Source of the DNA: Alphaproteobacteria bacterium
GTDB taxonomy: Bacteria; Pseudomonadota; Alphaproteobacteria; Micavibrionales; Micavibrionaceae
Direction of reading: 5' to 3'
DNA: 50,561 nt
NCBI GenBank assembly: GCA_021741325.1
Contig: JAIOYC010000002.1
Location: 1 to 50,561 of the forward strand
The position numbers were made by a program, and so were the translations under genes. Below the pieces are notes generated by a model, which did no database searches, had not been told where the DNA came from, and worked only from the letters and a program-made list of their open reading frames with translations. Shown piece after piece: positions 31,062 through 40,151 of this stretch. Position 1 is the stretch's first letter. Each line of letters starts with the position of its first letter.

Positions 31062-31110
31062 GACCTGATCTCCTTTTCATGCGATGAGCCTTATGCTCTG
31101 GCTTTGTCAG

Positions 31111-31126
31111 TACAATAGCCGTGCCA
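31111..31126 (-). promoter_or_regulatory. Sigma-54 (RpoN) promoter
   Basis: The minus strand reads TGGCACGGCTATTGTA. This matches the consensus TGGCACG-N4-TTGCA at all but one fixed base (T for C in the -12 GC). The -24 GG and -12 G are 10 bases apart as required. The start near 31100 would leave a ~39-base leader before the ATG at 31061. A sigma-54 activator is encoded divergently next door. Confidence 0.65.
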
Positions 31127-31176
31127 TTTACCACTTTTGTTTATTTTCAAATAGTTAAGTTGTTTTTGAGAAAACC

Positions 31177-31238
31177 CGCTCCGGAGAAGCGTCCGGAAAA
31201 CGTCCGGCCATGCGTTTCCATCGTATGATTCCCGGACG
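31177..31238. promoter_or_regulatory. Array of CGTCCGG half-sites (putative activator binding region)
   Basis: CGCTCCGG (31177-31184), CGTCCGG (31190-31196) and CGTCCGG (31201-31207) repeat at 11-13-base steps. An inverted copy CCGGACG is at 31232-31238. The array lies ~50-110 bases upstream of the sigma-54 -24 element and directly in front of the activator gene, as expected for an enhancer that may also autoregulate. A TATGAT at 31224-31229 lies between the inverted arms. Confidence 0.55.
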
Positions 31239-31273: not shown

Positions 31274-32677
31274 ATGGGAGGAATGATTTCTTCCTCCGCC
31301 CTCATCGTGGACGATGATCGCACCGCCCGCAGAATGGCGATGGGCGTTTTGCGCAACAGCCTCGGGCTGGCCTGCGTGGAGGCTGTAAACGGACAGGAAG
31401 CCTTGCAATGCCTGGAAGCGGATCTTCATAAGGAAATCCGGCTTATCCTGCTGGACCTGGACATGCCGGTCATGGGGGGGATGGAGGTGTTGCCCGCCCT
31501 TGTACGGTCCTATCCCCATATCCCCGTCATCATCCTGACCGGGGGTGGAGGCACAGGAGAAGCCGTGCAGGCTATCAAGGGCGGAGCATCCGATTTCCTC
31601 TCCAAGCCCATCGCAGCCGACCGCCTGGCGGTGTCCGCGCGCAACGCCCTGAAAATGTCCCTGATGTCCCGGGAAATATCCCGCCTGAGACGCAGGGAAG
31701 AAAGCGCTGCTACATTTTCGGATCTCATAGGATGGGACGGAGGCCTGGCGGAAAGCGTAAAAATCGGCAAAAAAGCGGCGTTGTCCGATCTGCCCGTTCT
31801 GATCTCGGGCGAGACGGGAACCGGAAAGGAGATCTTCGCCGGGGCCATCCACGGGGAAAGCAGCCGGGCGGGACGATCCTTTATCGCGGTGAATTGCGGA
31901 GCCATTCCTGAAAAGCTGGTCGAGAGCACTTTATTCGGCCATGAGAAGGGATCCTTCACCGGGGCCATCAACAAATCGGCGGGGAAATTCCAGGAAGCGG
32001 AGGGTGGGACGCTCTTTCTGGACGAGGTGGGCGAATTGCCCATGGACGCGCAGGTCAAGCTTCTGCGTGCGCTTCAGCAAAAGGAAATCGAACCCGTCGG
32101 GGCGGGCAAGCCGGTCCGGGTGAATGTGCGGGTGATTTCAGCCACCAACCGCAAGCTGGAAGAGGATGTAAAAAACGGGCGCTTTCGCGAGGATCTTTAT
32201 TTCCGTCTGAATGTCCTTCCGATCGACCTGCCGCCCCTGCGATTGCGGACGCAGGATATAAGTCTTTTGGCGCAATATTTTATCGAACAGTTCTGCGCCG
32301 CCCACCGCGCAGCCCCTAAAACTTTGAGTCCCCGAGCGTTGGAAACTCTGCAGAATCACTCCTGGCCGGGCAATGTCCGGGAGCTGGAAAACACCATGAA
32401 CCGGATCATGGCCCTGTGCGAGGAGAACATTTTGGAGCCGCAGCATTTCGTGCTGCGGTCTTCTGCGCCCGCTATCATGCCGGCGGTTAAGAACGCGATC
32501 ATCCCGGTCCAGGAGGACGGCGTTTTTAAATCCATGGATACGCTGGAGCGCGAGATCATTGCCCTGGCCCTTGCGCATCACGGGCACAACATGTCGCGCA
32601 CGGCCCGGAGCCTAGGAATTGCGAAATCGACTTTGTACGCGAAGATCGGCCACATGACCGATCTGAAAGCAGGATAG
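31274..32677 (+). CDS. Sigma-54-dependent response regulator (NtrC family)
   Basis: A 467-residue transcription activator. The receiver spans ~5-125 with Asp61 (LLDLDMPVMGG). The AAA+ domain (~150-385) has Walker A GETGTGKE (179-186), the sigma-54 contact loop GSFTGA at 226-231 (Ser in place of the usual Ala) and Walker B GGTLFLDEVGELP. The C-terminal Fis-type helix-turn-helix is at ~425-465 (ALAHHGHNMSRTARSLGIAK). It is divergent from the membrane-protein/kinase operon, and the space between holds a sigma-54 promoter and repeated half-sites. A second ATG three codons in is possible. Confidence 0.94.
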   Translation: MGGMISSSALIVDDDRTARRMAMGVLRNSLGLACVEAVNGQEALQCLEADLHKEIRLILLDLDMPVMGGMEVLPALVRSYPHIPVIILTGGGGTGEAVQAIKGGASDFLSKPIAADRLAVSARNALKMSLMSREISRLRRREESAATFSDLIGWDGGLAESVKIGKKAALSDLPVLISGETGTGKEIFAGAIHGESSRAGRSFIAVNCGAIPEKLVESTLFGHEKGSFTGAINKSAGKFQEAEGGTLFLDEVGELPMDAQVKLLRALQQKEIEPVGAGKPVRVNVRVISATNRKLEEDVKNGRFREDLYFRLNVLPIDLPPLRLRTQDISLLAQYFIEQFCAAHRAAPKTLSPRALETLQNHSWPGNVRELENTMNRIMALCEENILEPQHFVLRSSAPAIMPAVKNAIIPVQEDGVFKSMDTLEREIIALALAHHGHNMSRTARSLGIAKSTLYAKIGHMTDLKAG

Positions 32678-38710: not shown

Positions 38711-40132
38711 ATGATCAGGAAACCCAAAAGCTTTAAGCCCCGGCAATTTCGGGATGCGCAAGGCGCCATCGACGCCGCCACTGAAATTTACAATGCTCAC
38801 ATAGAATATCTTCAGGGCTGCTTTCAGGATTTCGTTCGCGGCGAACCCGTCCCCAAAGCCAAAATATCCGCGGCTTACCCCTATGTGAAAATATCCACGA
38901 TCCATGCGCGGCGGCGTGATACGAGGCTGTCTTATGGTTTTGTGCCGCGTCCCGGAGTGTACGCGACCACCCTGACCCGTCCTGATATTTTTCATGATTA
39001 TTATCGGGAGCAATTCACGCAGCTTCTGGAAAACCACAATGTTCCCCTTGAAATCGGCGTGAGCACGACGCCCATCCCCGTCCATTTCGGGCTGGGGGAA
39101 GGGTTTCACCTGGAGGGCGATCTCTCGCGGGAGCAAGTCGAACAATTGCCCGATGTCTTTGATATTCCCGATCTGGACCTGATGGATGACGAGATCGCAA
39201 ACGGCACCCATATCCCGGCACCCGGCGGGGCCGAGCCGCTCTCGCTCTTCACCGCGCCGCGCGTGGATCTCAGCCTGCAGCGCCTGCGGCATTATTGCGG
39301 AACGGCGGCGCCTCACTTCCAGAAATTCATCATCTTCACGAATTATCAATTCTATATCGACGAATTCGTGAAAATGGGCATGGCCCAAAGCAGCACGGGG
39401 GGCTACACCGCCTTTACCGGGCCGGACCCAAAGAGCCGAATGCCGCAAATGCCGGCCTGGCACCTTCAGCGTTCGGACGGCAACGGAATCACCATGATCA
39501 ATATCGGTGTCGGGCCATCCAACGCCAAGACCATCACCGACCATGTCGCGGTTTTGCGTCCTCATGCGTGGCTGATGCTGGGCCACTGCGCGGGGTTGCG
39601 CAATTCGCAGCAACTGGGCGATTACGTTCTGGCGCACGGGTATCTGCGGGAGGACAATGTCCTGAACGAAGATGTGCCCCTTGCCGTCCCCATACCCGCC
39701 CTGGCCGAAATTCAGCAAGCACTGGAACAGGCCGTGGCGCAGGTGACGGGCAAGGCGGGTTATGAATCCAAAACCGTGATGAGAACCGGAACCGTGGCCA
39801 CGACGGACGACCGGAACTGGGAGCTGCGCTCATCGGTTCGGCAAAACCGCCGCCTGAGCCAGAGCCGGGCGGTGGCCATGGATATGGAATCGGGAACGAT
39901 CGCGGCCAACGGGTTTCGCTTCCGGGTGCCTTACGGGACATTGCTGTGCGTATCGGACAAACCTCTCCACGGCCAGTTGAAGCTGCCGGGCATGGCGGAC
40001 CGTTTTTACCGCGAGCGGGTGGAACAGCACCTCCAGGTGGGGCTTCTCACCATGACGCTGCTGCGGGGGTTCGACCCGGAAAAACTCCATAGCCGTAAAT
40101 TGCGCAGTTTCAACGAGGTCGCGTTTCAATAA
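38711..40132 (+). CDS. amn: AMP nucleosidase
   Basis: A 473-residue enzyme that splits AMP to adenine and ribose 5-phosphate. The N-terminal AMN domain (residues ~1-170, with PYVKISTIHARRRDTRLSYG and FHDYYREQF) is specific to this family. The C-terminal half has a nucleoside-phosphorylase fold (MINIGVGPSNAKTITDHVAV; MLGHCAGLRNSQQLGDYVLA; AVAMDMESGTIAANGFRF). It sits 30 bases after recF; its own promoter is not clear. It is convergent with the M48 protease gene. Confidence 0.95.
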   Translation: MIRKPKSFKPRQFRDAQGAIDAATEIYNAHIEYLQGCFQDFVRGEPVPKAKISAAYPYVKISTIHARRRDTRLSYGFVPRPGVYATTLTRPDIFHDYYREQFTQLLENHNVPLEIGVSTTPIPVHFGLGEGFHLEGDLSREQVEQLPDVFDIPDLDLMDDEIANGTHIPAPGGAEPLSLFTAPRVDLSLQRLRHYCGTAAPHFQKFIIFTNYQFYIDEFVKMGMAQSSTGGYTAFTGPDPKSRMPQMPAWHLQRSDGNGITMINIGVGPSNAKTITDHVAVLRPHAWLMLGHCAGLRNSQQLGDYVLAHGYLREDNVLNEDVPLAVPIPALAEIQQALEQAVAQVTGKAGYESKTVMRTGTVATTDDRNWELRSSVRQNRRLSQSRAVAMDMESGTIAANGFRFRVPYGTLLCVSDKPLHGQLKLPGMADRFYRERVEQHLQVGLLTMTLLRGFDPEKLHSRKLRSFNEVAFQ

Positions 40133-40151
40133 GAAACGGTTTGGCTTCGCC

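Follow-up and report, generated by a model that had tools for sequence, protein, structure and literature searches.

The window, by which we mean the whole stretch of 50,561 nucleotides analysed here (contig JAIOYC010000002.1 of a Micavibrionaceae assembly), contains between positions 31111 and 31238 a real, conserved sigma-54/IHF/enhancer switch that belongs to an uncharacterised circuit and whose mechanism is textbook and mechanistically ordinary. A sigma-54/IHF/NtrC-type circuit with two palindromes is very probably the best explanation of the region as a whole. Conservation among relatives establishes the predicted promoter, the IHF-type element, the candidate palindromes, the spacing between them and the gene order. 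In the literature searched, no description was found of the activator clade, of the palindrome or of the cargo. What results is a map, down to single bases, of a regulatory module from an alphaproteobacterial group that is little studied and for the most part uncultured. An uncharacterised clade of the NtrC family is connected with the DNA site that it likely uses, and small membrane proteins, likewise uncharacterised, emerge as conserved outputs.

The sigma-54 promoter and its IHF-type element

The -24/-12 element TGGCACGGCTATTGTA, with the fixed spacing of a sigma-54 promoter, is located on the minus strand (31126-31111) and, as the earlier note had claimed, deviates at one fixed base from the consensus TGGCAC-N5-TTGCW. 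By itself the element is at chance level and not significant: allowing at most one mismatch, the consensus has 1 match in the window, namely TGGCACGGCTATTGTA, vs 1.7 expected. It is the conservation across relatives, and not the number of matches in the window, that makes the case convincing. When 20 loci (19 plus the window) were turned to one orientation for reading the region before the activator gene, an equivalent element became apparent in most of them, and in total 22 activator loci, window included, have a sigma-54 element that diverges from the activator gene and lies 93-173 bp upstream of its start; none was detected at this place in G027, G031 and G036. The start of operon transcription is predicted near 31100. 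In the window, the -12 reads GT instead of GC (31113-31112), as in most of its close clade, and the TTGT form is common to G029a, G025, G035a, G007 and L054, perhaps as a weaker promoter that has been maintained. The extended pattern TTGA-N18..22-TGGCAY-N5-TTGY has a single occurrence in the assembly, which is the promoter of the window.

Absence of an rpoN gene had been named beforehand as grounds for giving up the sigma-54 reading, and this holds in the literal sense only. Two models gave no rpoN match in this assembly, but the metagenome-assembled genome (MAG) is 84.75% complete and in 116 contigs, and rpoN is found in 56 of 58 genomes and in 47/47 well-completed relatives, so incompleteness is the simplest reason for the missing gene. 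The gap in the assembly, the chance-level count and the GT at -12 would all suit a coincidental element and repeats, with the operon relying on another promoter. Against this, position, IHF-type element and palindromes are conserved across the order, the GT is conserved in the clade and rpoN is there in all well-completed relatives, making such a coincidence extremely improbable.

Between the promoter and the palindromes lies a further element that the earlier note had overlooked, TAACTATTTGAA (31146..31157, minus strand). It reads YAA-N4-TTGAW, the reverse of WATCAA-N4-TTR, with 8 of 8 fixed letters in the window. The same pattern, matching in 7 or more of its 8 fixed letters, is present at -32 to -29 from the TGG in all 22 sigma-54-bearing loci, as compared with a maximum of 6 in 500 shuffles, a control that treats the loci as independent though they are of shared, albeit diverged, ancestry. 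Both IHF subunit genes are found in the genome, himA with 132 bits and hip with 144.5 bits, each above the curated cut-off. The consensus of an IHF-assisted promoter stands between promoter and enhancer in a genome that encodes both subunits, and TAACTATTTGAA is presumably bound by IHF itself.

Paired palindromes and the neighbouring activator

Upstream of the IHF-type element are two 17-bp palindromes, the imperfect CGTCCGGAAAACGTCCG (31190-31206) and CGTATGATTCCCGGACG (31222-31238), whose centres are 72 and 104 bp upstream of the TGG and 32 bp from each other. Both are conserved and count as candidate enhancer sites, which at a promoter of this kind are expected to be palindromic and to lie roughly 80-150 bp before the start. 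The region had been described in the earlier note as a CGTCCGG array of direct repeats plus one inverted copy, some 50-110 bases upstream of the -24. The distance agrees with the measured one (about 52-112 bp, usual for enhancers), and exact heptamers do occur at 31190 (+), 31201 (+) and 31232 (-); the copy near 31178, on the other hand, is only CTCCGG and is not conserved, and the repeats are better read as two imperfect palindromes. The heptamer is frequent in the window (29 found vs 11.8 expected), and three exact copies within 49 bp are unusual, with about 0.01 expected per window by rough arithmetic from this density. The direct-repeat array was rejected since relatives conserve the palindromes and neither the heptamer nor the 31178 copy; the region around 31184 has a poor palindrome score.

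A search for palindromic motifs returned cGTcTgA-aat-TcAgACg, with a log-likelihood of 202.6 vs 46 +/- 9 (maximum 73) for shuffled sequences, a control that likewise takes the related loci as independent. With only the four nearest relatives as training set, and this genome excluded, the matrix ranks 31222 first and 31190 second among 50,545 window positions, while the less specific matrix from all relatives ranks the two only 44th and 137th; the palindrome site has drifted between clades. The top window match to the all-relatives matrix is CGTTTCAATAAGAAACG at 40122-40138, which with 16.8 bits is near chance for 50 kb. The spacing of 32 bp is also present in G029a, G025, G035a, L054 and L057, and is 33 bp in G007; L054 and L057 had been held out from motif building, yet both have two palindromes 32 bp apart. 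The activators of all these loci and of the window are monophyletic in the tree (100/98 support). Loci outside this clade have two or three palindromes at about 58, 73, 90 and 101-106 bp from the TGG, and at L058 the promoter is present with no recognisable palindromes.

The neighbouring gene (P0001, 31274..32677, plus strand) encodes, as had been claimed, an activator with a GSFTGA loop, and Pfam recognises a receiver domain, a sigma-54 AAA+ domain and a Fis-type HTH. D14, D61 and K111 are kept in an alignment of 18 relatives, and the protein has the phosphoacceptor Asp, the GAFTGA-type loop and the Fis-type HTH of an NtrC-family response regulator. Relatives with 48-64% protein identity occur in 16 other genomes among the 58 searched, and further ones in named MAGs, the close ones being recorded as Alphaproteobacteria or Rickettsiales; the promoter architecture is not found in the Rhizobiales relatives L063-L068, L071 and L072, which have 44-53% identity. 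At L050 (G036:C53 34206-35584) two overlapping frames take the place of one intact activator gene, through frameshift, decay or assembly error, and the function of the activator there is doubtful.

The arrangement behind the proposed local circuit, a promoter and a divergent activator gene, recurs in relatives. Among 62 distinct promoter-pattern sites in relatives, a set that omits some activator-locus sites, 9 have palindromes and the other 53 none; seven of the nine are beside the activator gene and two (G031, G036) are unlinked to it, so action of the activator in trans on the promoter is likely. All nine belong to activator-bearing genomes. A different enhancer-binding protein of the Fis type might instead bind the palindromes, since with 22 activator-like matches this genome has other regulators available. 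The confinement of palindrome-bearing promoters to activator-carrying genomes, mostly beside the activator, speaks against this, as does the change of palindrome type between clades of the activator tree, and we consider a different regulator very unlikely.

The operon, its probable phosphorelay and its probable feedback

The first gene of the sigma-54 operon (P0002, 30627..31061, minus strand) encodes a protein of 144 aa in which one membrane helix is apparent and whose tail NPEALAYALNAIDVGE is conserved. It has no match in Pfam or NCBIfam, and it was found in only 4 of 58 searched genomes, every one with the activator. It is followed on the same strand by a stand-alone receiver-domain protein (P0003, 30141..30593; Pfam Response_reg) and by a hybrid histidine kinase in which Pfam finds HisKA-HATPase and three receiver domains (P0004, 28003..30126). 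Small membrane protein, receiver protein and hybrid kinase make up the operon in the clade of the window, and this gene order is kept in G029a, G025 and G035a. On the other side of the activator, and convergent to it, lies the gene of a receiver-Hpt phosphotransfer protein by Pfam (P0005, 32696..33715, minus strand), which adjoins the activator also in G029a, G025, G035a and G007 and is its probable phosphorelay partner. A histidine kinase in which Pfam recognises no sensor domain (P0006, 33746..34522, plus strand) has a counterpart close by in the same four and is a possible partner of the activator, the kinase-activator pairing being suggested by neighbourhood only.

In the proposed mechanism, the NtrC-family response regulator (31274-32677), once phosphorylated, would bind the two 17-bp palindromes, which are about three helical turns apart. 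A bend introduced by IHF at 31146-31157 would let the AAA+ ring reach, through its GSFTGA loop, the sigma-54 polymerase at 31126-31111 and open it. The transcript from near 31100 would run leftwards through the genes of the small membrane protein, the receiver protein and the hybrid histidine kinase. Together with the receiver-Hpt protein and the neighbouring kinase, the operon products probably represent a phosphorelay that feeds the activator, and the circuit is for this reason probably self-reinforcing. Protein binding, the phosphorylation route and the signs of the feedbacks are inferred. A stronger reading takes the module as a dedicated self-amplifying switch. The main sigma-54 target of the activator would be its own phosphorelay operon together with a small single-helix membrane protein, and the promoter module of sigma-54 element, IHF-type site and palindromes would stay the same, even after leaving the neighbourhood of the activator gene, as its cargo changes between small membrane proteins, receiver proteins and a FIST sensor; we put this forward tentatively, as less likely than not.

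The activator probably adjusts its own expression as well, since the palindromes lie 36-84 bp before its ATG. A simple scan for a sigma-70 promoter of the activator gene found none. The autoregulation suggested in the earlier note is plausible: G027 and G036 have palindromes before the activator although the search detected no sigma-54 element there, while G031 lacks palindromes at this place. Repression of its own gene is more likely than activation. The proximity to the ATG and the cases of G027 and G036 would also fit palindromes that work mainly as an operator for the activator gene, bound by the activator or by another regulator, with the divergent sigma-54 promoter merely sharing the region. 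However, palindromes are found in G031 and G036 upstream of the unlinked sigma-54 promoter too, in G031 with none upstream of the activator, and they recur at set distances from the TGG; we judge an operator role of this kind to be unlikely. The preferred reading is that of enhancer sites for the sigma-54 promoter.

In G024, G031 and G036 the promoter type precedes a different single-helix membrane protein of about 70-80 aa, which was found in no other searched genome. The genes stand directly behind the promoter module in G036, G031 and G024 (L150, 4116-3880, minus strand; L146, 3102-3338, plus strand; L155), and the family has two conserved cysteines (AEC...GDVC in G036). The G036 gene is on its own, with a terminator after it. 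A small RNA had been considered for the unlinked G036 promoter, which has no long ORF downstream, and was discarded when an ORF of 78 aa was found there, preceded by a plausible ribosome site, together with the terminator; an Rfam search gave nothing above a gathering score. The cargo of other clades consists of a FIST protein or of receiver proteins whose N-terminal domain is unnamed. A different set of sigma-54-like promoters, with the TTGA spacing and no strong palindromes nearby, is seen at L148, L151 and L152 (G053, G027 and G023), where they precede a conserved protein with an FGDxLDxxNPLxHIPxx-like stretch.

Relation to known systems

The activator shares the REC-AAA+-HTH_8 architecture of NtrC, AtoC and ZraR, with solved relatives 4l4u, 1ny5 and 5m7n. 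Its best NCBIfam matches are AtoC (384 bits, cut-off 714) and NtrC (364 bits, cut-off 559), and its scores stay well under each of the curated equivalog cut-offs shown, those for NtrC, AtoC, NtrX, FlbD and ZraR included. Judged by these scores, the protein is not one of the regulators named. The palindromic site CGTNYGA-N3-TCRNACG probably differs from the site of NtrC.

A close parallel is with the orp operons of Desulfovibrio vulgaris, which are controlled by the enhancer-binding protein DVU2106, IHF and sigma-54 and whose divergent sigma-54 promoters share one cluster with the activator gene (PMC3897727). Palindromic activator sites are located upstream, and the IHF sites, at -43 for orp2 and at -42 and -79 for orp1, are between promoter and enhancer and have been found experimentally to be required for activation (PMC3897727). 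In the same way, the window has a divergent sigma-54 promoter by the activator gene, palindromes upstream and an IHF-type site in between. In contrast to the orp genes, which are thought to concern septum positioning (PMC3897727), the operon of the window encodes signalling proteins, and the likeness of its activator to DVU2106 is known at the level of the AAA+ family.

A second likeness concerns NosP/NahK nitric-oxide signalling, as G038 has a FIST gene divergent to the activator and one copy's operon includes a hybrid kinase; the operon of the window, in contrast, is without a FIST gene and its kinase reaches 207 bits vs the NahK/ErcS cut-off of 400. At both G038 loci (L049 and L051) the FIST-domain gene is NosP-like and hybrid kinases are nearby, and a link to nitric oxide or haem sensing is possible.
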